Of a stretch of 45,526 bases of DNA, positions 9,021 to 38,646 are shown one piece after another. The notes beneath the pieces are model-generated. The model saw only the letters and a program-made list of their open reading frames with translations. It did not search any database and was not told where the DNA came from. This DNA is from Halomonas sp. GTDB lineage: Bacteria; Pseudomonadota; Gammaproteobacteria; Pseudomonadales; Halomonadaceae. Numbering within the stretch: position 1 is the first letter of the stretch; each line of letters opens with the position of its first letter. The stretch is from positions 1 through 45,526 of the forward strand of contig NZ_JACUUD010000014.1 in the NCBI RefSeq assembly GCF_014859505.1. The letters run 5' to 3'. The translations under genes were made by a program, and so were the position numbers.

Positions 9021-11081
9021 TCATGAGGCGCAGGCGTCCTCCTTGTCCAGGGCGCTGGTCTGCAGGGCCAGCGCCTTCTCGAGGGTGTCGATGCCGCGGG
9101 CCTCTAGCCGCGGCAGCAGGGCCAGCCACAGCTCGGCGGTGACCCGGGCGTCGCCCAGGGCGGTATGCCGCGTGCCCGGCGGGAAGCTGAGACCGTAGCG
9201 CTCGGCCAGGCTGTCCAGATCGTGGCCGTCCAGGCTGGCGTCCAGGGCCCTCGAGATCAGCAGGGTGTCGAGCACCGGCATGTCCAGGGTCACCCCGGCG
9301 CCAGGCGGCTGCAGGGCCAGGAGGTCGAAGGCGGCATTGTGGGCGAGGATCACCGCCTCGCCGACGTAATCGCGGAAGCGCGGCAGCACCACCGGCAGAG
9401 GCGGGGCGCCCACGACGTCGGCGTCGGTGATGCCATGGATGGCGGTACTGGCCGGGGGGATCGGCTTGCCGGGGTCGACGCGCACGTCGAACACCTCGCT
9501 GGCCAGCAGGCGGGTATTGACCACGCGGCAGGCGCCGATGCTGATCACGGTGTCGCCTCGGCGCAGCTCGAGGCCGGTGGTCTCGGTATCGAAGGCCACC
9601 ACCTCCAGGGCGCGCAGCGGGCGGGCGGCCAGCGCGGCGTCGGGTGGCGGCAGGTCGGCGATGCCGAAGTCATGGAACTCGGGGCGCGGCGGGGTGGCCG
9701 GCCGCGGGGCGCCGACCCGATCGGTGGCGGGCATCGGCAGGCGCAGGCGGGCGTGCACGCCGTCGTCATCGGCCAGGCTCCAGGCGTCGCTGGCGTGCTG
9801 GCGCAGCACGTCGGCCACCCGCGGCGAGAGCGGCAGGTCGTCCAGGCGTTGCTGCTGCCACTCGGTGAGCTGGCCTTCGTTGAGCGGCGCGCCCTGCCAG
9901 ATCAGGTCCAGATAGACCCGCTTGTTGCCAAGGCAGACCTCCCCCTCGAGTTCCTCCGGAGCTCGATGCTCCTGAAGCCCCTCGATCAGCGAGCCAAGCA
10001 TCACCAGCAGCGCCGTGGCATCGCCCTTGAACCAGGCGGGCATGCCGACCGGCACCACCTTGACCTGTCCGGCGCGGCGCTCGTTGAGGGCCTCCCACAG
10101 GTCGTTGGACCACAGCGGCACCAGTCGCTCTCCCTCGTGCTGCATCTGCTCCACGAGGGCGGCGAGATGCTCGATGTCCTGGCCCAGGGACTGGCTCTCC
10201 TCGTCGATCACACGTTCAAGGCGCTGGCGCATCTCACCCGAGGCGCTGCCCAGGGAGGTCAGGGCATCAGCCGCACTGGTCAGGCTGGCGCTGTGGCGGC
10301 GCAGGCGGGGCAGGCTGTCGAGCAGGTCGGCGCGGGCACCCATCTCGCTGGTCCAGGCGGCGGTGGTGTCGCTCAGGGTGAGCAGGGTCTCGCCGTGGCT
10401 GCCCGGTACCCGACGCATCACGGCGCGCAGCCAGCGTTCGTCACAGGGCACCAGAGCCTCCCGCGGGGAGCCGTCCCGAGGCAACTGCCCCAGGGCGTCC
10501 TGGAGGCTGACGGCGGGCAGCAGGCTCTCGAGACGCTTGCCCAGCCCCAGTCCATGATGGTCCTCGAAGAGGCGCTCGGCCGCCTGGTTGAAGAGCAGCA
10601 CCCGGCGGTGCTGGTCGCAGAGCAGCAGCGGGGTGTCGAGCACCTGCAACAGGGTCTCGAGTTCCTGGCGAATGCGGGCGGCGCTGCGTGCGCCCTCGGC
10701 GTGAGCAGTGGCCAGGCGACCGCGGTCGGTGCGCCAGGCATCGCGTACCCGCACCAGGTCAGGCCCGAGTGCGCGCAGCCAGCCCTCGGGGGGATAGTCC
10801 TCGCGGGCGTCGGGATTGGCCACCAGGCGTGCCAGCTGCACCTGCAGGTGGCGCAGCGGGGTGAACAGCTGACGCTCCAGCAGCAGGCCCACCAGGAAGA
10901 TGGTGCCGCCCCCGGAGAAGCAGCCCAGCCAGAGCACCAGGCGGGCCATACCCGTTGGCTGGAAGAGGGTGTCGAGCCACAGGGCGAAGGTGGCACCGCC
11001 GAAGATGCTGACGCCGCTGAGCAGCAGCCAGAGACCGATCAGACGCTGGCGGCGGGGCAGCCCGGGGAGACGTCGCGCCAT
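9021..11081 (-). CDS. Membrane-anchored PAS/degenerate-kinase protein with C-terminal DEDDh exonuclease
   Basis: A 686-residue protein in three parts. Residues 1-120: two transmembrane segments (about 14-35 and 45-68) and a HAMP-like stretch. Residues about 140-260: a PAS-like domain (ETLLQVLDTPLLLCDQHRRVLLFNQAAERLF). Residues about 265-460: a region resembling a histidine kinase core but lacking a recognisable phospho-accepting His box and intact ATP-binding boxes. Residues about 490-675: an exonuclease of the DnaQ/DEDDh class with FDTETTGLE (Exo I), HGITDADV, HNAAFDL (Exo II) and HTALGDARVTAELW (Exo III). All acidic residues appear present, so nuclease activity is plausible. Its ATG overlaps the receiver stop as TGATG, giving tight translational coupling. 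PA3232-type exonucleases next to symporters in Pseudomonas are the closest context I know. Confidence 0.88.
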   Translation of the reverse strand: MARRLPGLPRRQRLIGLWLLLSGVSIFGGATFALWLDTLFQPTGMARLVLWLGCFSGGGTIFLVGLLLERQLFTPLRHLQVQLARLVANPDAREDYPPEGWLRALGPDLVRVRDAWRTDRGRLATAHAEGARSAARIRQELETLLQVLDTPLLLCDQHRRVLLFNQAAERLFEDHHGLGLGKRLESLLPAVSLQDALGQLPRDGSPREALVPCDERWLRAVMRRVPGSHGETLLTLSDTTAAWTSEMGARADLLDSLPRLRRHSASLTSAADALTSLGSASGEMRQRLERVIDEESQSLGQDIEHLAALVEQMQHEGERLVPLWSNDLWEALNERRAGQVKVVPVGMPAWFKGDATALLVMLGSLIEGLQEHRAPEELEGEVCLGNKRVYLDLIWQGAPLNEGQLTEWQQQRLDDLPLSPRVADVLRQHASDAWSLADDDGVHARLRLPMPATDRVGAPRPATPPRPEFHDFGIADLPPPDAALAARPLRALEVVAFDTETTGLELRRGDTVISIGACRVVNTRLLASEVFDVRVDPGKPIPPASTAIHGITDADVVGAPPLPVVLPRFRDYVGEAVILAHNAAFDLLALQPPGAGVTLDMPVLDTLLISRALDASLDGHDLDSLAERYGLSFPPGTRHTALGDARVTAELWLALLPRLEARGIDTLEKALALQTSALDKEDACAS

Positions 11082-27500: not shown

Positions 27501-29303
27501 ATGTTGAAGGACCTGCGTGAATTCTATTCCCTGCTGAGTCGAGAACAGCGCCGACGGCTTCTCCGCTTGCAGGGCCTCATCATCATCATGTCGTTCGCCG
27601 AGATCGCGAGCGTGGTCTCGATCGGGCCCTTCATGGCCGTGGTGGGAAACATTCAGCGCCTCAATGGTGACGGGCTCATGGCCCGGATCTTCCAGGCCAC
27701 CGGGCTGCAAAGTCCGGAGGCGTTTCTGACCCTGCTCGGCGCCATGGTACTGACGATCCTGTTTCTCTCGGCGATGTTCTCCATGTACACGACCTGGCGG
27801 CTGTCTCTCTTCAGTGCCAGCGTTGGGGCGGAGATATCGAGCCGCCTCTACCGCTACTATCTGCATCAGCCCTGGCTGTTCCACTCCGGTCAGAGTACGA
27901 GCCGCCTGATCAGCAAGGCGTCTCAGGAGGTACAGAGGACCACAACTAAGATCATCTCCCCGAGCCTGCAGCTCAATGCCAAGCTGGTGATGGTGACTAC
28001 CATGACCCTGGCTATCTTCTTCTATCATCCGGGCGTGGCCATGGCAGGCGTGGTCATCTTCGCTGCGGCCTACCTGCTGCTCTACAAGACGGTACGGCGT
28101 TTCCTGGTGGCCAATGGCCGGCGTGTCTCTCGCGCCCAGGCCAAGCGCTTCAAGCTCATGACGGAGGGCTTCGGCGGCATCAAGGACCTGCTGTTGCTGC
28201 ATCGGCAGGATACCTATGTCTCACGTTTCGAGAAGGCTAGTTATAAGGTCGCTCGCGGCCAGGGCGTCACCCAGGGGCTGAGCGATGCCCCTCGCTATGC
28301 CATTGAATTGATAGCCTTCGCCTCGATCGTCCTGCTGGTGCTCTATCTGCTCAACCTGTACGAAGGAAACCTGGGGGCGATCCTGCCGGCGCTGTCGATC
28401 TATGCCCTGGCCGGATTCAAGATGCTGCCAGCCTTCCAGAGAATCTATTCGGCCATCTCGGTGATTCGGGGAAACCTCTCTGCCTACTACACCATTCGCG
28501 ATGACCTGATGGCGAGCCGCGAGAGCGAGCATGACGGTGTTCCTGGACAGGAAGGAGAGATAGTGCCGCTGGTTCCCGAGCAGGCAATCGAGCTTCAGGA
28601 CGTGACGTTTGCCTACCCGGGAAAGAAGGACAGGGCACTCAACGGGCTGACATTGACCATACCTGCCAACGCGATGGTGGGCCTGGTCGGAGCGTCTGGG
28701 AGCGGCAAGAGCACCGCGGTCGACCTGCTGCTGGGTCTGATCCAGCCCGATACGGGCGACGTGCTGATCGATGGGGTGGCATTGACGCCGGAGAATCTAC
28801 GCCATTGGCAGGCAAGCCTGGGACTGGTACCCCAGCAGATCTTCCTGGCCGATGCCAGCATCCTCGATAACGTGGCATTTGGCGTTCCACCCGAACAGGT
28901 TGACGAAGCCAAGGCCTTGAAGGCTCTCAAGATGGCACAGCTGGATGAGATGATCGAGAAGCTGCCCGAGGGCGTCAACACCTGGGTCGGTGAGCGCGGC
29001 GTGCAACTCTCCGGAGGCCAGCGGCAGCGGATCGGGATAGCCCGAGCCCTGTATCAAGAAGCGAAGGTGCTGGTGCTGGATGAGGCCACCAGCGCACTCG
29101 ACGGCATCACCGAACGCCGCGTGATGGAGGATATCCAGCGGCTGGCCGGCAACTTGACGATCATACTGATTGCGCACCGTCTGACCACCGTCAAGGACTG
29201 CGACATGATCTATATCCTCGATGCCGGGCGGGTCGCCGACAGCGGTACCTATGATGAACTTGCGGTGAATAACGCTACCTTCAAGATGATGGCCAACCTC
29301 TGA
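27501..29303 (+). CDS. ABC transporter, PglK/MsbA-type lipid-linked oligosaccharide flippase
   Basis: A 600-residue half-transporter. The membrane domain has six hydrophobic segments (about 20-320). The ATPase domain has Walker A GASGSGKS (about 398-405), the signature LSGGQRQR, Walker B VLVLDEATSALD and the switch His in IAHRLTT. The N-terminus (LREFYSLLSREQRRR...) resembles PglK, which flips undecaprenyl-PP-linked glycans. With Wza/Wzc/Wzy present but no Wzx-type flippase in the locus, this protein is the likely repeat-unit flippase. Substrate inferred from context. Its TGA overlaps the next ATG (TGATG). Confidence 0.9.
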   Translation: MLKDLREFYSLLSREQRRRLLRLQGLIIIMSFAEIASVVSIGPFMAVVGNIQRLNGDGLMARIFQATGLQSPEAFLTLLGAMVLTILFLSAMFSMYTTWRLSLFSASVGAEISSRLYRYYLHQPWLFHSGQSTSRLISKASQEVQRTTTKIISPSLQLNAKLVMVTTMTLAIFFYHPGVAMAGVVIFAAAYLLLYKTVRRFLVANGRRVSRAQAKRFKLMTEGFGGIKDLLLLHRQDTYVSRFEKASYKVARGQGVTQGLSDAPRYAIELIAFASIVLLVLYLLNLYEGNLGAILPALSIYALAGFKMLPAFQRIYSAISVIRGNLSAYYTIRDDLMASRESEHDGVPGQEGEIVPLVPEQAIELQDVTFAYPGKKDRALNGLTLTIPANAMVGLVGASGSGKSTAVDLLLGLIQPDTGDVLIDGVALTPENLRHWQASLGLVPQQIFLADASILDNVAFGVPPEQVDEAKALKALKMAQLDEMIEKLPEGVNTWVGERGVQLSGGQRQRIGIARALYQEAKVLVLDEATSALDGITERRVMEDIQRLAGNLTIILIAHRLTTVKDCDMIYILDAGRVADSGTYDELAVNNATFKMMANL

Positions 29304-30319: not shown

Positions 30320-30437
30320 TCGAACCGGGGAGCGTGCACACCCCTGCCATATGAAGCGGTTTGGCGTATGGTGATAGCCTGTCTTTCTGATAACCCCCGA
30401 AGTAACCAGGCGGAGTATGCACCTGCGGGTGGAACTT

Positions 30438-31679
30438 ATGAAAATGACCAGAATTCTGAAACGCGTGTCTATCGACTTTGCCTGGATGCCCCTTGCGCTG
30501 CTGACTCTTCTGGTGCCAAGAAACAGGAAACTCTGGGCGTTCGGGAGTTCGAATGGCCAAAAGTACGCAGATCATTCCCGTATGTTGTTCGAAAACCTGC
30601 AGGAACATGGGGGTGGGGCCGATATACGAGTCGTGTGGAGCACGAAGTCTGAAGAAGTATTTCATGAGCTGATGGGGCGTGGATATCCGGTAATAAAGTC
30701 TGATACCTTACGGGGTTTCCTGACAACACTGCGTGCTGGTGTATGTGTCTACACACACTATGCGCATGATCACAACCGGATCGCGGCATTTGGTGCCTAC
30801 AAGTTGCAGTTGTGGCATGGCATCCCGCTGAAGCGTTTCAAGGCAGTGTCCGGGTTGCTCGAAAAAGGCAAGGCAGGCAGGCAAAGAAGGGACTTTCATA
30901 ATTGGATGCTGAATGTTCAGAAGAAGATCTTTCCCTGGGCAAACCCGACTTGGGACCTGCTTGTTTTTCAAAGTAATGTGGATCGCGAGCGCACCGGGAC
31001 AGCTTTTGATGGAACCTATCGTCGTGGCCTGGTGGCGGGATCAGTCAGGGTGGAGAATTTGAAACAACAATTTTCACCTCAGCTGCCAGAACGAAAAGCG
31101 GGTGACAAGAAGATGCGAAGAATACTTTATGCCCCGACCCACAGGGCGCTAGGTCATGAATCGCTTTTCGAGAAGGTGCCCGTCCCCGTGGGAAATATTC
31201 TCCATGCGGAGTTGCAAAGGATAGGGGCAACGATGGATGTGAGGCTGCATCCATTCCAGGAGGGAGAGGCCGTTCCGGATATCATGAAGTGTGGCCCAGT
31301 GCAACTCGTCGCCAATTCCGCCTGCGACGATATTTACAGTGGGCTTCATGATTTCGATATCCTGATTACCGATTATTCCAGCATTTTTATAGATGTCCTG
31401 CCTCTTGGGATGCCGGTCATTTTCCTGGCGCCGGACCATCTGGAATATTCTAAAGATGATCAGGGTTTTTTCAGCGAGACGTTTTCCGTCCCAGGACCTG
31501 TTGCGCTGACGTGGGAGGAGGCGCTAATTTATTGTGACGGGGTCCTTAATGAAGGCAAGGATCCATGGCTGGAATCCAGAGAAGAGGCGGCCAGGTTTTA
31601 CTTCGATAGCCGTGCTGGAAAGAAATCTGCGATGGAGAATGTTATCTCCACGGTTATGGAAGAACTCAGGATTGAATAA
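30438..31679 (+). CDS. CDP-glycerol glycerophosphotransferase family protein (TagB/TagF-like) no. 1
   Basis: A 413-residue GT-B-like polyglycerol-phosphate transferase. Recognisable parts: an N-terminal membrane-binding helix, LWAFGSSNGQKYADHSRMLFE, LWHGIPLKRFKA (the catalytic-site His of the family), ILYAPTHRA, the phosphate/CDP-glycerol pocket RLHPF and ILITDYSSIFIDVLPLGMPVIFLAPD near the C-terminus. The family transfers glycerol phosphate from CDP-glycerol in teichoic acid synthesis, and some Gram-negative capsules use it. A TagD-type CDP-glycerol synthase lies at 34801-35261. Start uncertain: ATGs at 30417, 30438 and 30444. The AT-rich codon use differs from flanking housekeeping genes. 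Confidence 0.88.
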   Translation: MKMTRILKRVSIDFAWMPLALLTLLVPRNRKLWAFGSSNGQKYADHSRMLFENLQEHGGGADIRVVWSTKSEEVFHELMGRGYPVIKSDTLRGFLTTLRAGVCVYTHYAHDHNRIAAFGAYKLQLWHGIPLKRFKAVSGLLEKGKAGRQRRDFHNWMLNVQKKIFPWANPTWDLLVFQSNVDRERTGTAFDGTYRRGLVAGSVRVENLKQQFSPQLPERKAGDKKMRRILYAPTHRALGHESLFEKVPVPVGNILHAELQRIGATMDVRLHPFQEGEAVPDIMKCGPVQLVANSACDDIYSGLHDFDILITDYSSIFIDVLPLGMPVIFLAPDHLEYSKDDQGFFSETFSVPGPVALTWEEALIYCDGVLNEGKDPWLESREEAARFYFDSRAGKKSAMENVISTVMEELRIE

Positions 31680-31817: not shown

Positions 31818-32780
31818 ATGTCCAGTTTGAGAAAAAAAGGGATCGAGTTTATCAGGATCGTCCTGGCTCGTGTTGGTTATAAACTCAAGCCCATAAGTTC
31901 TTCAATTCCTATCGCACTGCCTTCGTTCGACGGTGACCCCCGGGCACTGAGATACCTCAGAAAGAATAGGGACTACTTGATTACGGCAAGACTCAAGGAT
32001 GGTCGTTCGCTATTTGTTTTCCCGCTCAGTGATATCCATGGACACCCCTTTTCAGGGGCTGTCAAGTCGGCGCTTGATGTGTCGTTGACAGGCGGAGATG
32101 AGCGGGAGGCAATCAGGCTCGGGTTGCGGCGCTTCTATTGGTTCCATCAACCGGAGTTTGCAGCTGAGGTGCTTGGAGTTGCACCCAAGGACATTCCCAT
32201 GTTGGGAGTTCAGCCACCTTGGGTGGTGATCAAGCCTTGGGAAGATATGACAGTAACAGAGCGCCAGGAAAAAATAATCAGGCATGAGAGGAAGGACAAC
32301 AGTCATATTTCAAAAGTTGATATGAGTGTCGAGCATGGCTGTAACTTTTGTGGTCCTGTGTCAGAAGAAAAACTCGAGGTTGAAGTTGAGCGACTATATA
32401 AAATCATGAAGTCCATTCGAAAGAATGGATTTATTCGTCATGATTTCCTCGATGGTGACATTCGGGTCGAGTTGCTGGTTGATTCATCCGGTAACTGGAA
32501 GTGGCTCGTAAAGTCAGGCCAGCATCGTGCCGCAGTCATCAGCGCCCTCGGTTTCTCTAGCGTTCCTGTCAGAGTCGGCAGTGTTGTGTGTCGCGATGAG
32601 GTTGACGTCTGGCCTCAGGTACTGGCAGGCAACTACTCCAGGAAAATAGCGCTGCAGGTGTTTGATAATATTTTCGTTGGTGTTGGATTGGGTAAAGGAT
32701 GCCGGATCGGAAGCCCTGGTGTGGCTGCCAGACCTTGGCGATATGATGCAATGTTTAGCAGTATCGATAAGGATGGATGA
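31818..32780 (+). CDS. GQHR-motif protein no. 1 (ParB/sulfiredoxin-like domain), uncharacterised
   Basis: A 320-residue protein with no established function. The basic, amphipathic N-terminus (RIVLARVGYKLKP, about 13-25) may touch the membrane. Residues about 60-145 form a conserved pre-domain (FYWFHQPEFAAEVLG, PPWVVIKPWEDM). Residues about 185-255 match the ParB-type pattern: KSIRKNGFI (198-206), then GQHRAAVISALGFSSVPV (234-251) in the position of the ParB GERR / sulfiredoxin GCHR nucleotide-binding box. The tail holds WPQVLAG and ALQVFDNIF. A paralogue at 35303-36262 has GQHR at exactly the same residues. There is a run of seven A at codons 5-7. It lies 3 bases upstream of the three-domain gene, so they are co-translated. 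A small-molecule phosphotransfer role is a guess from fold relatives. Confidence 0.82.
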   Translation: MSSLRKKGIEFIRIVLARVGYKLKPISSSIPIALPSFDGDPRALRYLRKNRDYLITARLKDGRSLFVFPLSDIHGHPFSGAVKSALDVSLTGGDEREAIRLGLRRFYWFHQPEFAAEVLGVAPKDIPMLGVQPPWVVIKPWEDMTVTERQEKIIRHERKDNSHISKVDMSVEHGCNFCGPVSEEKLEVEVERLYKIMKSIRKNGFIRHDFLDGDIRVELLVDSSGNWKWLVKSGQHRAAVISALGFSSVPVRVGSVVCRDEVDVWPQVLAGNYSRKIALQVFDNIFVGVGLGKGCRIGSPGVAARPWRYDAMFSSIDKDG

Positions 32781-32783
32781 AGG

Positions 32784-34661
32784 ATGAAAATCAAGAGAGG
32801 CATCAGGCGCCGTCTTTCAAGACTGCTGAGACGTCCGATCAATCAGCGCAGGTTTGTTGATTCCTCGCTCGGAGCGAGTGGTTTTCTCAAGATATTGAAA
32901 GAAGAAGATGTTGATTATGTTGTGCTGCGCTGGTTCGAAACATTGCCCCATGTTGCTCCGGGCGAAGATATCGACATCCTTGTTGCTGATAACGATATCG
33001 AAATAATGACATCCTATATGAAGTCGGTTGGGAATAAAGGCGATATTCCCTGTGATGTCTATAGTGTCAGTGGCCTGCCAGGTTCAAACTCGAGGAATAT
33101 GCCTTATTACCCCGTGCCAATCGCCAGGAAGATATTGGATAATGCCATCTGGGTGAATCACCTCGTCAAGGCTCCTTCCCATGATGATCATTTCCTATCT
33201 CTTTGCTATCACGTCTTGTACCATAAAGGCTATTCATCGGGAGTCCCCTCCGAGGACGCAGAGCGTAACAAGAAGGTGCTCCCCTGTAATGATCATGATT
33301 ATGTAGCAATGCTCGAGAGGCTGTATCAGGAATCCAGTCTGAAGTCTGCGCAATTTGTGGTTACCCTCGAAGGGATCGATAGAATATTGAGTGAAGCCGG
33401 GTGGAAGCCTGCCCATGATACGCTCGAGAAGATATCAATGCGAAATCAATGGATCCGCGATGCGCTCTGTGAAGACGCGGTCGAGATTCCTGATGATCTG
33501 AGAGGGTTATCCATTTTCCTGGTCAGGGAAGAGGGGATGGAATATCTTGATGTCATCAAGAAGATCCTCTTTGACCAAGGTTTTGATCACGTCATGGAGG
33601 GGAGTATTCCGGAGGAAAGAGTCGGCCGGGTTGCATCCGGTATTCGCGGAGGAAACTGGGGAAAGGGCCCTTGGCCAAAAAGCGGAGGTTTGCCCTCTTA
33701 TTATTATGTTGTCTATGATGCCAAGCCTATTTCACCCAATAAAAAAATGCTCAAGGATCATCCTGGACTTCATAATGAAAGAATCTCGATGGCGAAGCTC
33801 AATATACGGGATAAGTACAATCGTGAGGTGGGCCCCAAGTTTAGATGTAATATTCTTCATTCGGCTGATAATGCTGACCAGACGCTCTATTATCTTGGGC
33901 TTATAAATACTGGTTGTATTCCCTTTGTCAAGGAAGAGGCTTGCAGGAAATATTCCGCGTTTGCCACCCCATTTGCGGTTGTCAAGGATCTCAGTAAACA
34001 TGCGCGACGAGCGAAGGTTGAGCTGATCGATTTTCATGGGAAGAAAGCCATATGCAAGACGTTCAAGGAAGGTCGTGAGCATTTCCTGGAGAGAGAAATT
34101 ACAGCACGTAAAGTCGGTGCGGGCTTGAGTGAGGTATCCAGCCTCCTAAAGGCCGGGAAAAACTATATTGTCATGGAGTTCTGTGAGGGTTCCCGTGATG
34201 AAATATCGAGTATTCGACCATTTTTTCACAGTCATGATTATTTGCCGATTTGGGCAATAGAACAAATGAAACAGATAATTATTTATTATCGTGCGCGCGG
34301 CTATGAATGCGTTGACTTCAGTCCGAGAAATGTCCTGATTGACTCCAGTAAGGGGCTGAAGGTCATTGATTTTGAATTTTTGCAGAAGGTGGATGCTCAG
34401 TCGGCAGGACTGGTGGGTAATTTGGCCTGGTATTCTCCTCCTGATGGTTTTGAAGGCGACCTGCCTCAGGGGAAGACTAACGTTTCTCTGTATCGTAGGC
34501 GCTGGTTTCGCTATACGGGGCTCCCGATCTATTTCTGCCTCAACGATTTTCCCAAGGCCGTTCTTCACCTGGTTCGTGGGGTGACCTTCATTTATTTCTC
34601 TGTCAATAACGCCAGACGAAAAGCCGTTTCACTACCCTTCAAGAAATTTAACTTCCGCTGA
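32784..34661 (+). CDS. Three-domain protein: nucleotidyltransferase-like, NDK-like and kinase-like
   Basis: A 625-residue protein that I cannot assign to a named family. Residues about 30-170 resemble a nucleotidyltransferase fold (YVVLRWFETLP, then PGEDIDILV with acidic residues 62 and 64, and a later YHVLYHKG). Residues about 240-375 follow the nucleoside diphosphate kinase pattern: SIFLVREEG at the first strand, LNIRDKY, and CNILHSADNADQ with the catalytic His359 in the N-x-x-H context, although the usual first-strand Lys is Arg. Residues about 400-550 look like a protein/sugar-kinase fold: Lys425 in AICKTF, hinge IVMEFCEG, catalytic DFSPRNVLI (Asp511, Asn516) and metal-binding VIDFEF (Asp529). 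All key kinase residues are present. It is bounded by GQHR protein 1 and TagD, in the AT-rich core. Confidence 0.8.
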   Translation: MKIKRGIRRRLSRLLRRPINQRRFVDSSLGASGFLKILKEEDVDYVVLRWFETLPHVAPGEDIDILVADNDIEIMTSYMKSVGNKGDIPCDVYSVSGLPGSNSRNMPYYPVPIARKILDNAIWVNHLVKAPSHDDHFLSLCYHVLYHKGYSSGVPSEDAERNKKVLPCNDHDYVAMLERLYQESSLKSAQFVVTLEGIDRILSEAGWKPAHDTLEKISMRNQWIRDALCEDAVEIPDDLRGLSIFLVREEGMEYLDVIKKILFDQGFDHVMEGSIPEERVGRVASGIRGGNWGKGPWPKSGGLPSYYYVVYDAKPISPNKKMLKDHPGLHNERISMAKLNIRDKYNREVGPKFRCNILHSADNADQTLYYLGLINTGCIPFVKEEACRKYSAFATPFAVVKDLSKHARRAKVELIDFHGKKAICKTFKEGREHFLEREITARKVGAGLSEVSSLLKAGKNYIVMEFCEGSRDEISSIRPFFHSHDYLPIWAIEQMKQIIIYYRARGYECVDFSPRNVLIDSSKGLKVIDFEFLQKVDAQSAGLVGNLAWYSPPDGFEGDLPQGKTNVSLYRRRWFRYTGLPIYFCLNDFPKAVLHLVRGVTFIYFSVNNARRKAVSLPFKKFNFR

Positions 34662-34800
34662 GTTGATTGCCGGATATTCGAGGTTGTCAGCTTCCTGATA
34701 CGCATGAAGTCAGATTTAATAGAATAACTTCTCCGATTTTCACATCTCGTGTCGCCTCAACAGCGACATGTTGGCCATTCTGTTTGGGGAGAACGAAAGA

Positions 34801-35261
34801 TGACAAGAACAGTGATTACCTACGGCACATTTGACATGTTTCATATTGGTCATCTCAACCTGCTTCGGCGCATTTCCGAGTTGGGGGACCGGTTGGTCGT
34901 TGCGGTATCCACGGATGAGTTCAATGCCGGTAAGGGCAAGCGAACCCTCATTCCCTTCGAGCAGCGTGCCGAAATCGTGCGCAATATCCGCTATGTGGAT
35001 GAGGTGATACCGGAGGCCTCCTGGGATCAGAAAATCGACGACGTGAAACATCACCAGGTGACCACCTTCGCCATGGGAGACGACTGGATGGGCAAGTTCG
35101 ATTTCCTTTCCCCCCATTGCGAGGTCGTGTATCTGCCGCGGACCGAGGGTGTCTCGACAACCGAGTTGAAGCGCTCCCTGAATCGCTTCTGCAGCGTTTC
35201 CCGCGAGGATATCCTGCGCGCCTTCGACGTTATCGAGCAGTTGCGCAAGGATTTTGGCTAA
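34801..35261 (+). CDS. tagD: Glycerol-3-phosphate cytidylyltransferase, TagD-type
   Basis: Makes CDP-glycerol from CTP and glycerol 3-phosphate, the donor for glycerophosphotransferases. The 152-residue product has YGTFDMFHIGHLNLL with the HxGH motif (residues 15-18), the lysine-containing AGKGKRTLIPFEQRAEIVRNIRYVD region and the C-terminal RTEGVSTTELK, matching the RTxGISTTxI signature of this family. The GC content returns to the genomic level within this gene. A 139-base AT-rich gap precedes it, which may hold a promoter that I could not define. Two TagF-like genes in the locus would consume the product. Confidence 0.92.
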
Positions 35262-35302
35262 TCGTGACTTTCCCTATCGGGCTCTATCTTGCGGTGAGTC
35301 TT

Positions 35303-36262
35303 ATGCCATGTACAGGAAAGTGGATTTCAGCCGCTCGTCGGCTACCCATCAGGGCGTTGGCAAGGGCAGGATTCGGCGTCTATCCAAGCCGCGACCTGAG
35401 AGGGGTGGCGATTACCGTTCCCGAAGTGCTCGATCGATACGCGCAGCGCCCCTGCATCGTGGAGTGCCCCATTTCCCATTGCCTATGGTTCGGTCCCACG
35501 GGCCTCGCCTATGGCAAGGAGTCATCGCACCCCTATGTGCAGAGCCTGTTGCAACAGCTGCGTGGCGAGTGTCGCTACTATCAGGAGACTTGCCTGGCGC
35601 ACTACTGGCGGTCATGGACGCCGGCGACACTGGCGGAGTCCCTGGGAATCGATGCTGAATCGGCGCATCCCTGGTTGAACGACAGCCCCCCGCTGAGCGA
35701 CTTCATGCCCTGGGGGGGCATGCCACAGTTCGAGGCCCTCAAGCTGTCCGTACAAGCCTCCGAACAGGGACGCCTGGCAGATGGAGAGATGCCGGCGGTC
35801 AGCGAGATCGCCGTCAGACAGGTGGGTCCCAAGCCCGACTGGTTCGGCGAGCTCAGGATTCAGCATCTTGTGTCGCTACATGCGCAGATAGCCTCGGAGG
35901 GCTACCGCCAGCGGGCCTCGTCGAGTCTTTCGTACAAGCATCAACATGTGGTGGTCGACTCCATGGTGCGCGGTGGCGAGGTCAGGTTCCTAGTGGCCAA
36001 CGGCCAACATCGGGCTTCGGTGCTGTCCGCCATGGGACACGAGAGCGTGCCGGTGCTGCTCAACGTCTCCCACAAGCGTGGACCATCGGTCATCCGCCGT
36101 GGCGACGCTGCTAACTGGCCGCTTGTCCGGATGGGCATCATTTCACTTTCCGATGCGCTCGACGTCTTCGACAGAGTCTTCGAGGGTCGACAGCCCCGCG
36201 GTTTTCCGGCCCTGAAGCGAGCGGGCGACCCCTGGCCGTGTTGCACCTGCCAAGGGGAATGA
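35303..36262 (+). CDS. GQHR-motif protein no. 2, paralogue of 31818-32780
   Basis: A 319-residue uncharacterised protein. It aligns along its length with the protein at 31818-32780: an N-terminal IRALARAGFGVYP helix, the AHYWRSWTPATLAESLG / PPLSDFMPWGGM pre-domain, and VANGQHRASVLSAMGHESVPVLL, with GQHR at residues 234-237 in both. The tail ANWPLVRMG...ALDVFDRVFEG also aligns. The frame is open from 35117 across the tagD end, but the ATG at 35303, preceded by GGTGAG, gives the same length and motif position as the paralogue, so I prefer it; a GTG at 35264 is the alternative. Unlike its paralogue it has a high-GC composition and a Cys-rich C-terminus (CCTC), so duplication is old or the two arrived separately. 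Confidence 0.82.
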   Translation: MPCTGKWISAARRLPIRALARAGFGVYPSRDLRGVAITVPEVLDRYAQRPCIVECPISHCLWFGPTGLAYGKESSHPYVQSLLQQLRGECRYYQETCLAHYWRSWTPATLAESLGIDAESAHPWLNDSPPLSDFMPWGGMPQFEALKLSVQASEQGRLADGEMPAVSEIAVRQVGPKPDWFGELRIQHLVSLHAQIASEGYRQRASSSLSYKHQHVVVDSMVRGGEVRFLVANGQHRASVLSAMGHESVPVLLNVSHKRGPSVIRRGDAANWPLVRMGIISLSDALDVFDRVFEGRQPRGFPALKRAGDPWPCCTCQGE

Positions 36263-36338: not shown

Positions 36339-37355
36339 ATGTCGATTCTTGTGACAGGTGGGGCCGGTTACATTGGCTCTCACATGGTGCTCGCTCTGCT
36401 TGAGCATCACCATGAGGTAGTGGTGCTGGACAATCTGAGCAATGGTTCCGCCGCATCGCTTGAACGAGTCGCGGCGTTGACCGGCAGGGACGTGGCCTTC
36501 ATCGAAGGCGATGTGCGCGATCGAGAGCTGCTGGATCGGCTCTTCCACCAGCATAAGATCGATGACGTGCTGCATTTTGCCGGTCTCAAGGCAGTTGGAG
36601 AGAGCGTCGAGCACCCTCTGCGTTACTTCGATTACAACGTGTCGGGAACCGTGACCCTCTGTCGTGCCATGGAGGCCGCTGGCGTCCGTCGTCTGGTCTT
36701 CAGCTCCTCGGCAACGGTCTACGGGGATAACGACACCGTCCCCTACGACGAAGCGCTGCCTACCGGGGAACCGACCAATCCCTATGGTCGTTCCAAGCTG
36801 ATGGTAGAGGAGGTGCTAAGGGACCTGGCGCGGGCCGATACGCGCTGGTCCATTGCGTTGCTGCGCTACTTCAATCCTGTGGGGGCGCACCCCAGTGGAC
36901 TCATCGGCGAAGACCCGCTCGGCATTCCCAATAACCTCGTGCCTTACATCACCCAGGTCGCCGTCGGGCGCCGCGATGCGCTATCGGTGTTCGGCAACGA
37001 CTATCCGACTCCCGATGGCACCGGGGTGAGGGATTACATCCATGTGATGGATCTTGTAGAGGGGCACCTGGCGGCCATGAAGGCGATCGGCAGGCGTCCG
37101 GGCGTCTCGGTCTGGAACCTCGGGGGCGGACGGGGATACTCGGTACTCGACATGATTCAGGCCTTCGAGAAGGCCGCCGGGCGCAAGATCCCCTACCGGA
37201 TCGCGCCACGCCGAGACGGGGATCTGGCGCAATACTGGGCCGATGCCTCCAAGGCCGAGAGAGAGCTGGACTGGAAGGCGACACGTGACATTGAGGCGAT
37301 GATGGCGGATGCCTGGCGATGGCAGGTCAACAATCCCGGGGGCTATGCCTCTTGA
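36339..37355 (+). CDS. galE: UDP-glucose 4-epimerase, GalE
   Basis: NAD-dependent SDR epimerase interconverting UDP-glucose and UDP-galactose (or the HexNAc pair). The 338-residue product has TGGAGYIGSHMVLALL (about 6-21), SSSATVYGD with Ser near 123 and catalytic YGRSK (Tyr about 149, Lys about 153), then the YFNPVGAHPSGLIGEDP substrate loop typical of GalE. The ATG at 36339 follows AAGGAAG; the upstream open frame to 36273 is not conserved. It supplies a sugar donor for the polymer, and the presence of one in the capsule locus need not mean it is the housekeeping copy. Confidence 0.95.
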   Translation: MSILVTGGAGYIGSHMVLALLEHHHEVVVLDNLSNGSAASLERVAALTGRDVAFIEGDVRDRELLDRLFHQHKIDDVLHFAGLKAVGESVEHPLRYFDYNVSGTVTLCRAMEAAGVRRLVFSSSATVYGDNDTVPYDEALPTGEPTNPYGRSKLMVEEVLRDLARADTRWSIALLRYFNPVGAHPSGLIGEDPLGIPNNLVPYITQVAVGRRDALSVFGNDYPTPDGTGVRDYIHVMDLVEGHLAAMKAIGRRPGVSVWNLGGGRGYSVLDMIQAFEKAAGRKIPYRIAPRRDGDLAQYWADASKAERELDWKATRDIEAMMADAWRWQVNNPGGYAS

Positions 37356-37437
37356 TCCGGCCGTGTCCCCTGTCCCCGCATGCTGCCCCCCGGCCTGGCC
37401 CGGTGAAGCCGAGTCCTCATACCGAGAGTCGAATACC

Positions 37438-38646
37438 ATGAATTACCTCTTGCGTCTGTTGCAGCAACTCGCCTGGCTTCCGCTCTGTCTGTTCGGTTGG
37501 ATGAGCTCTCGCGATGACACGCTCTGGGTGTTCGGTGCCTGGCACGGTCGCCAGTATTCGGACAATGCCCGGCATCTCTATCGGCACGTTCGCGACCATG
37601 AACCAGAGCTTCGTGCGGTGTGGCTGAGCCATGACCCCGATGTGGTAAGGCAGGTCCGTGAGGAGGGGGGAGAGGCCGCGCTGGCCTATTCGCTGGCGGG
37701 TATCCGGTTCTCCCTGCGGGCACGCCTATTCCTCGTGACCCATACCGCGGAGGACGTCAACGCACATGCTTCCGTCGGGGGCACCCTGGTCAACCTGACT
37801 CACGGTACGCCATTGAAGCGGTTCGGAAAGGATGCCAGGTCCAGCAGGCTCGGCGGTTTCACGCCGCTGTTTGACCTCTACCTGCGCCGACTGCTGCCGG
37901 CGAAGCGGGGGCCGGATCGAGTCCTGGTGGCGTCGGGTGTCGGGCGCCAGCGGATGATGACGGCCTATGGCCTTCCTGCCGAGCGCGTCTCGGTGCTGGG
38001 CTATCCCCGCTGGGCTGCGTTCCACACCGATGCCGCCTCGTTGCTGCGTCGTGAGGGCATCGAGCCACGTCGCTACAAGGGTGTCGTGCTCTACGCCCCA
38101 ACCCTGAGGCAGCAGGGCAGGGGTGGGCTGGATGTGGCCCAGGGCAGGCGGCTCGAGGCGCTGTTGCCCTGGCTCGAGCAGCAGCAACTGCTCCTGCTGG
38201 TGCGTGGTCATGTCGCGTTGAAGATGACGGGGGTTGAGGCCCTGGCCCGGCACTCGTCACGGATCATGGAGGCTTCGGCAGACCGCTTCCCGGACGTCAA
38301 CGAGCTGATGCCTGAGATCGATGTGCTGATCACCGACTACTCCAGCCTGATGTTCGACTACGCCTGCTTCAAGCGCCCGATCATCCTGATGGCGCCGGAC
38401 CTGGAGGACTATCTCCATCGCGACGTCGGGGTCTATGGCGACTATGTCGAAGACGCCCCGGGACCTGTGATCCGCGACTGGTCCCAGGTGCCCTCGGCCT
38501 GGCAGGAAATTGCCGAGGGCCGACATGACCAGCGACTCGCTCGCTTTACGGCTCGCCATGCCGCCATGAATGACGGCCGGGAGTGCGAGAGGGTCACCAT
38601 CTACCTGCGTGACCACTATCAGCTCAAGACGGTCGTTCCTGCCTGA
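37438..38646 (+). CDS. CDP-glycerol glycerophosphotransferase family protein (TagB/TagF-like) no. 2
   Basis: A 402-residue relative of the protein at 30438-31679. It begins with a hydrophobic helix (LLRLLQQLAWLPLCLFGW) for membrane association, then WVFGAWHGRQYSDNARHLYRHV, LTHGTPLKRFGKD (catalytic-site His), VVLYAPTLR, LVRGH and DVLITDYSSLMFDYACFKRPIILMAPDLEDY, the CDP-glycerol pocket signature. The C-terminal DAPGPVIRDW is family-typical. The two copies share motifs but are not near-identical, so one may prime the linkage and the other add further glycerol phosphates, as TagB and TagF do; this is inference. The Shine-Dalgarno at 37438 is weak. Confidence 0.9.
   Translation: MNYLLRLLQQLAWLPLCLFGWMSSRDDTLWVFGAWHGRQYSDNARHLYRHVRDHEPELRAVWLSHDPDVVRQVREEGGEAALAYSLAGIRFSLRARLFLVTHTAEDVNAHASVGGTLVNLTHGTPLKRFGKDARSSRLGGFTPLFDLYLRRLLPAKRGPDRVLVASGVGRQRMMTAYGLPAERVSVLGYPRWAAFHTDAASLLRREGIEPRRYKGVVLYAPTLRQQGRGGLDVAQGRRLEALLPWLEQQQLLLLVRGHVALKMTGVEALARHSSRIMEASADRFPDVNELMPEIDVLITDYSSLMFDYACFKRPIILMAPDLEDYLHRDVGVYGDYVEDAPGPVIRDWSQVPSAWQEIAEGRHDQRLARFTARHAAMNDGRECERVTIYLRDHYQLKTVVPA

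Follow-up and report, generated by a model that had tools for sequence, protein, structure and literature searches.

An undescribed protein family with a predicted ParB/Srx fold, found mostly in glycan loci and often immediately downstream of flippases

Results

Two old paralogues in a Halomonas polysaccharide locus

The contig NZ_JACUUD010000014.1 of a Halomonas sp. was analysed over its complete length of 45.5 kb (hereafter the window; the genome is 3.36 Mb). It carries two genes, P1 (copy 1) and P2 (copy 2), whose products are members of one undescribed family of about 300 residues with a predicted ParB/sulfiredoxin (Srx) fold. In the following, P denotes any member of this family and P3 a protein of 625 amino acids (aa). 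An earlier examination of the letters alone (the sequence-only reading) had given the coordinates of both genes correctly and had rightly placed them on either side of P3 and tagD (Table 1). It had also described the sequence features that the two proteins share, and these are indeed present: GQHRA begins at residue 234 in both, the pre-domain pattern FYW/HYW...PPxxxxxPW is found in both, and SIRKNGFI (residues 199–206) occurs in P1 only. The paralogy is above chance (BLASTP E 1e-15, 28% identity over 225 aa), and in genome searches the two proteins retrieve each other at E 4e-12 and 5.6e-12. A recent tandem duplication is not supported, as P1 and P2 fall into different subclades of a FastTree tree of 43 sequences; they are genuine but old paralogues. 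Pfam gave no match for P1 and just one sub-threshold, unrelated-looking match for P2, and it detected a helix-turn-helix or dimerisation domain in neither. The proposed N-terminal amphipathic helix held up in part: the segment is helical in both structural models at low confidence, while its hydrophobic moments (0.43 and 0.49 for the two copies) lie between the internal mean of 0.34 and the 95th percentile of 0.55.

Table 1. Coordinates of the two family members, their motifs and selected neighbouring genes in the window.
Feature	Position	Strand	Description or basis
P1, ParB/Srx-fold glycan-locus family, 320 aa	31818..32780	+	Sequence, alignment, predicted fold
P1 helical insertion, about residues 77–180	32046..32357	+	Within the predicted fold, contains the PW motif; secondary structure of model, aligned ranges
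GQHR of P1, residues 234–237	32517..32528	+	Putative phosphate-binding P motif, Box II position; cf. PMC12704722
P2, 319 aa	35303..36262	+	Predicted fold as in P1; Arg185 where P1 has the conserved E189
GQHR of P2, residues 234–237	36002..36013	+	Alignment
ABC transporter, putative flippase	27501..29303	+	Third gene upstream of P1; PF00664 and PF00005; PglK-like by our own reading
TagF-like CDP-glycerol glycerophosphotransferase	30417..31679	+	Directly upstream of P1; PF04464
P3, 625 aa	32784..34661	+	Begins 3 bases past P1; N-terminal part resembles partner gene of other members; weak protein-kinase-like part
tagD, glycerol-3-phosphate cytidylyltransferase	34800..35261	+	TIGR01518, 169.6 bits, cut-off 165.4
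Second TagF-like gene	37309..38646	+	PF04464; true start possibly internal

Conservation and distribution of the family

Family members were found as 48 open reading frames (ORFs), of which 43 were aligned after removal of five fragments or weak matches (L026, L110, L113 and two pieces in L039; L numbers denote loci). The residues G234, H236 and R237 of the GxHR motif are invariant in 43/43 aligned members, P2-type copies included, the x residue being Q, H, E, N, Y, W, F, I or K. P140 (41/43) and W141 (42/43) are nearly as constant, and W265, P266, V268 and F282 are each conserved in 40–42 of the 43. E189 (P1 numbering) is conserved in 38/43. The five copies without this Glu comprise four P2-type copies with Arg and the second tandem copy of L096 with Ala, and each of the five genomes also carries a Glu-bearing copy. 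This loss of Glu is a pattern, not a statistic, because four of the five copies form one orthologous group. No Pfam family was common to 14 members.

Within the same bacterial family, 13/151 genomes carry members, the window's own included, and the same 13 were found with P2 as query and with a profile. Phylum-wide, single-sequence and profile searches matched 1/398 genomes, namely the window's own, and the family is therefore sporadic. Scanning 84,980 species genomes with a sequence pattern gave nine confirmed loci, in Modicisalibacter, two Halomonas and Thiorhodospira and in metagenome-assembled genomes of Balneolales, Spirochaetaceae, an alphaproteobacterial, a deltaproteobacterial and a Nealsonbacteria lineage. 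In the order of Thiorhodospira 8/47 genomes match (itself included; two merely at E 1e-5 to 1e-6), and in that of the Balneolales genome 13/128, again counting itself. With a Halomonadaceae member as query no match was obtained in 50,697 phage records, and two scans of viral contigs for family members returned no relative. Plasmid records gave one match, in a 2.6-Mb record of the clostridial Acetoanaerobium (L020, NZ_CP154629.1) that, although deposited as a plasmid, probably represents a chromosome; the protein encoded there is longer at its N terminus by about 200 residues.

Predicted fold

AlphaFold2 models built from 11 sequences were matched to solved structures by Foldseek and VIA-align. 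Both models had a predicted template-modelling score (pTM) of 0.76, with much of the core near 90 in predicted local distance difference test (pLDDT). Ranks 1–45 of the best 50 Foldseek matches of P1 were sulfiredoxin, ParB, Noc, SbnI, the SerK relative 1vk1, KorB and kin, human Srx being the best of all (E 1.6e-3, prob 1.00). For P2, Noc came first (E 0.02), followed by PadC, Srx, SbnI and SerK; among its best 50 matches the superfamily occupied ranks 1–26 and 43, and 7/50 were unrelated proteins, all below rank 26. In VIA-align the superfamily filled ranks 1–30 of 32 for P1 and all 34 for P2. The counts for both programs include Atu1540 and Osa, which we take to be members. Z was at most 5.0 for P1 and 6.0 for P2, and the ten best matches of each aligned 79–102 residues. 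The ParB/Srx fold, on which the sequence-only reading had staked its case, is thus predicted for both copies. We regard this predicted fold as well supported for the family, because one superfamily fills the match lists of two models of proteins that are 24–25% identical and because GxHR lies where it is expected.

The domain is larger than had been thought. It had been confined to residues 185–255, whereas structural matches begin at about residue 28–54. In the models the first strand is formed around residue 53, and a helical insertion within the fold (about 77–180) precedes the helix and GxHR.

Affinity within the superfamily

The family lies outside the reach of the standard ParB domain model. 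PF02195 left P1 and P2 unmatched at E up to 10 and 14 members unmatched at E up to 1, and when scanned against the whole genome it recovered the true ParB (E 1.4e-38) and, weakly, a single further place, neither P1 nor P2. A whole-genome scan with the SbnI model retrieved P1 alone (E 0.013) and left the genome's own ParB unmatched; P1 scored 15.4 bits with this NCBIfam model against a cut-off of 350, and P2 was unmatched at E up to 10. Against the PDB, two family profiles both had SbnI as their top match, at weak values (E 0.086 and 0.05), with unrelated chains next at about E 1. An hhalign comparison with SerK covered GxHR together with the W-P...G after it (E 0.0018, at a probability of just 15%), and in profile alignment the conserved Glu of the family (E189) pairs with a Glu of SbnI. 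GxHR occurs also in the kinases SerK (GHHR) and SbnI (GVHR), while the genome's own ParB has GERR, so that the motif resembles that of SerK and SbnI and not that of ParB. No ParA-like gene was found among the Pfam-scanned genes adjoining P1 or P2; the gene for the genome's own ParB is on a different contig, where it adjoins a ParA-like ORF.

Each known relative shares part of this picture. SerK, an archaeal ADP-dependent free serine kinase (TK0378, PDB 5x0b), has the ParB/Srx fold, GHHR and a W-P...G at nearly equal spacing. It differs in its length of 242 aa, in lacking the helical insertion and in its Glu30, whose column, by our own gapless register, does not seem to be conserved among P proteins; its role is in cysteine biosynthesis and serine metabolism (PMC5120207). 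The staphylococcal O-phosphoserine synthase SbnI has GVHR and a preceding helix that aligns, but it serves siderophore biosynthesis and P1 falls far under the cut-off of its model. Sulfiredoxin has its catalytic Cys within GCHR, whereas none of the 43 aligned members has Cys at the x position. The ParB/Noc CTPases share the predicted fold and are among the top structural matches, but are set apart by PF02195 and by GERR in place of GxHR.

Family members lie mostly in glycan loci

The gene context was examined in 44 loci, the window included, with genes called by a greedy ORF caller, not taken from annotation. The loci other than the window are 3.9–30 kb long, and absences are to be read as lower bounds; two weak matches in the order of Thiorhodospira (G547 and G554) were left out. 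Homologues were found mostly in glycan loci, as the sequence-only reading implied: 31/43 loci besides the window carry at least one glycan marker. After removal of redundancy such a marker was present in 23/34 P loci compared with 2/40 control stretches from nine P-carrying genomes, and two or more markers in 11/34 compared with 1/40 (Fisher p 0.0008), figures in which three Wzx markers derived from P loci count themselves. The ATP-binding cassette (ABC) transporter marker alone was found in 14/34 non-redundant loci and 0/40 controls. Twelve loci carry no marker; some of them have other glycan or sulfation genes, namely sulfotransferases (L027, L029), a pyruvyltransferase (L100) and genes of the glycosyltransferase family 2 (GT2) cluster (L041, L042, L100, L110). 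By eye, no glycan genes were evident in L111 or near the clostridial member in L020.

Several loci show features of their own. In L027 (1–17000) several genes that look sulfotransferase-like by eye, one of them confirmed as PF00685, surround a single P. HpcH-like aldolase and 2-hydroxyacid-dehydrogenase-like genes, likewise named by eye, recur together in L021, L022, L032 and L035. Cobetia marina presumably belongs to the same bacterial family as the Halomonas sp. of the window. A capsule of C. marina bears both sulfate and phosphoglycerol (PMC11766843), and decorations of this kind are thus present among these bacteria.

Flippases are often immediately upstream of P

A flippase was detected in 24/44 loci. 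Its position was evaluated for 47 of the 48 copies of P, ORFs of less than 150 aa being skipped when neighbours were counted. A flippase is within reach of 27 copies, on the opposite strand in two cases, and in all of the other 25 it lies upstream on the same strand (25/25). This direction alone means little, because GT2 genes likewise tend to follow a flippase (16/18) and gene layout alone predicts a flippase upstream of P in 18.6 of the 25. The signal is immediate adjacency. A flippase is immediately upstream of P in 14 copies where 4.7 are expected (simulation p 5e-5), and in 10/17 non-redundant cases where 3.5 are expected; the corresponding controls gave 2/18 for GT2, 0/16 for GT4 and 0/13 for an epimerase cluster. 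Four MATE-type flippases among these were labelled after they had been seen beside P, and the ABC cluster by itself gives an immediate count of 10 (7 non-redundant). Flippases of two types are found next to P, ABC and Polysacc_synt/MatE-like, the MATE-type flippase of L108 having no Pfam match and being assigned by its likeness to that of L107.

Flippase-P pairs also occur in housekeeping surroundings. The pair in L036 has a peptidase S49 gene on one side and Maf/YceD genes on the other, and that in L107 lies between a CNNM transporter gene and a gene without Pfam match that we take to be ComF-like, followed by HTH_25 and DNA ligase genes.

Neighbouring genes in the window and phospho-chemistry near P

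By Pfam, the neighbours of P1 and P2 in the window belong to a Wza/Wzc polysaccharide locus; they include glycosyltransferases, a Polysacc_synt_2 enzyme and two PF04464 genes, as well as a sugar transferase and a DegT aminotransferase. The closest named relative found, Halomonas campaniensis (L028), has an identical order of ABC transporter, GT2, TagF, P1, P3, TagD, P2, GalE and TagF2, with P1 67% and P2 71% identical to the proteins of the window; between its tagD and P2 lies an extra gene of the haloacid dehalogenase (HAD) type (L028:9044–9739, PF12710) that is absent from the window. G+C content is 47–53% across 29–35 kb of the window and 58–68% elsewhere within 14–44 kb. The dip includes P1 and P3 and excludes P2, and suggests that GT2-TagF-P1-P3 may have arrived as a block. 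In a genome of the same genus (L039) the copy most like P1 is split by one in-frame stop (pieces 9714–10010 and 10020–10757, minus strand), in a locus that also holds tagD and P3-like genes.

P3 had been described as a three-domain kinase-like protein. A weak protein-kinase match at residues 458–552 (Pfam E 0.0016) agrees with this, and the best 60 of 167 PDB sequence matches are all to protein kinases, with E 0.0073 at best. The rest of the description found no support apart from an N-terminal part that is presumably nucleotidyltransferase-like, judged by its motif. This part belongs to a Pfam-less protein family that recurs beside or near P (L042:8583–9896, minus strand; L041; L027:3471–4757, minus strand). 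It has a gene of its own elsewhere and is fused in P3 (BLASTP 4e-6 and 1e-35); the motif of the whole partner family is one that we assume to be nucleotidyltransferase-like.

The sequence-only reading had noted that tagD lies between the two genes and had assigned their products to a phosphoglycerol or phospho-sugar branch. A cytidylyltransferase gene was found in just 7/44 loci, and the assignment is too narrow for the family as a whole; the link to tagD does hold for the closest relatives of P1 and P2, over a small number of loci (window, L028, L030, L031, L039). A universal role in CDP-glycerol metabolism is not supported, no cytidylyltransferase gene being found in 37/44 loci. In L024, one of the seven loci, a fusion of phosphoenolpyruvate (PEP) mutase and cytidylyltransferase directly follows P and is accompanied by a thiamine pyrophosphate (TPP) enzyme, by our own reading a phosphonate pathway. 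A sulfatase-family gene (PF00884) that we take to be LtaS-like adjoins P in L034, and Stealth was found in L095 and, by cluster, in L098. The gene next to P in L099 joins a LicD-like part (residues 37–173 match a LicD-annotated protein) to a C-terminal GKHR box, whose match to the family covers 14 columns only (hhalign E 0.005, probability 7%). In the order concerned, 5/124 genomes match this fusion at E 0.001 or better, and in full length only G668 itself; the putative LicD-ParB/Srx-like fusion is a lead only.

Discussion

The ParB/Srx fold has so far been linked with the partition of chromosomes, with gene regulation, with redox repair and with the phosphorylation of serine. In open-licence literature no link between such proteins and glycan loci was recognisable, the one paper retrieved for it being a knock-down screen in Streptococcus pneumoniae. 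What is new here is the presence of same-strand flippases upstream of P, often immediately so. A survey of the ParB-CTPase fold from 2025 argues that the fold is a versatile nucleoside triphosphate (NTP) module with many uncharacterised members (PMC12704722). The domain search of that survey used PF02195, which does not match P proteins; its main text holds no words starting polysaccharide, capsul, teichoic or glycan.

We tentatively propose, with rather less than even confidence, that P is an NTP-dependent phosphotransferase acting on a lipid-linked glycan at the flippase, a reading in which we infer NTP binding, phosphotransfer, a membrane site and a substrate. An NTP, probably ATP, would be bound via GxHR as in SerK, SbnI and Srx; replacement of the Arg of GxxR is described as abolishing NTP binding in the tested binders of the fold (PMC12704722). 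P would act on the inner side of the membrane, where it would move phosphate onto a hydroxyl of the lipid-linked glycan exported by the adjoining flippase, or of the non-sugar substituent of that glycan. In the window, TagD and the TagF-like enzymes might supply the substrate in the form of a phosphoglycerol-bearing unit. Catalysis would fall to P1; P2, lacking the conserved Glu, would be a partner that is divergent or regulatory. A more specific version is doubtful: P would be a glycan kinase of a new class, a membrane enzyme of the ParB/Srx fold whose phosphorylation of the lipid-linked oligosaccharide would license or cap it for flipping, working with ABC- or MATE-type flippases and sometimes with a Glu-less partner copy.

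Several observations weigh against the phosphotransferase. The column of the catalytic Glu of SerK does not seem to be conserved: P1 position 186, paired with SerK E30 in our own gapless register, is Gly in 24/43 and Leu in 7/43, and E189 lies one turn (3 residues) later and is Arg in P2. The NTP bound is said to be predictable neither from sequence nor from AlphaFold3, and a SerK-like protein bound CTP (PMC12704722). The amphipathicity of the N-terminal helix in P1 and P2 is not clearly beyond chance. No Foldseek E reaches 0.001, and the VIA Z of superfamily matches is just 2.5–6.0; Z values of this size alone could reflect a common structural arrangement. A flippase was undetected within about 10 kb of 20/47 copies, many loci ending at contig ends, and is on the opposite strand for two more. 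The gene order may also be inherited rather than functional.

It is conceivable, if somewhat doubtful, that P is instead a ParB-like switch or coupling factor that changes shape with an NTP and gates or localises the flippase or the glycan assembly complex, with no phosphorylation involved. In ParB and Noc this fold works as a CTP switch. Membrane binding of Noc is CTP-controlled (PMC8429893). The flippase would be the best-placed partner for such a factor, two flippase types are used, and the apparent lack of conservation in the SerK Glu column fits here; however, Pfam detects no helix-turn-helix or dimerisation domain, the motif is GxHR and not GERR, and sequence and hhalign matches favour SbnI and SerK first. 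Because of GxHR and the affinity to SbnI and SerK, a kinase is placed ahead of a switch, not by much. An unlikely alternative role is in CDP-alcohol chemistry, where a CTP-like pocket would bind CDP-glycerol or a related donor and aid LicD/TagF-type transfer of a phospho-alcohol to the glycan. The seven loci with cytidylyltransferase genes, among them the L024 fusion after P, the LicD-like part joined to GKHR in L099 and the Stealth genes point in this direction, yet in most loci no such gene was found near P and the GKHR match is very short.

That P simply resembles SerK or SbnI in function, as a kinase of free serine or another small metabolite that supplies a phosphorylated precursor, is improbable. 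These two are its best sequence relatives, but the score of P1 is a small fraction of the SbnI cut-off, the Glu30 column of SerK does not seem to be conserved, and neither the glycan context nor the roughly 100 additional residues in helices would be accounted for. Slightly more improbable still is a glycan-locus protein that has kept the fold with no nucleotide function, for instance as a structural subunit. The loss of the conserved Glu in P2-type copies would suit it, and the fold is suggested to be able to persist as a non-catalytic binder (PMC12704722), but Gly, His and Arg of GxHR are retained in every aligned member, including those copies.

To our knowledge, the known schemes of surface-glycan export are without a nucleotide-dependent step of this kind. 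A ParB/Srx-fold family fixed beside flippases would add one, and P, with its GxHR motif and E189, is a compact and testable target for the role of divergent ParB-fold proteins.

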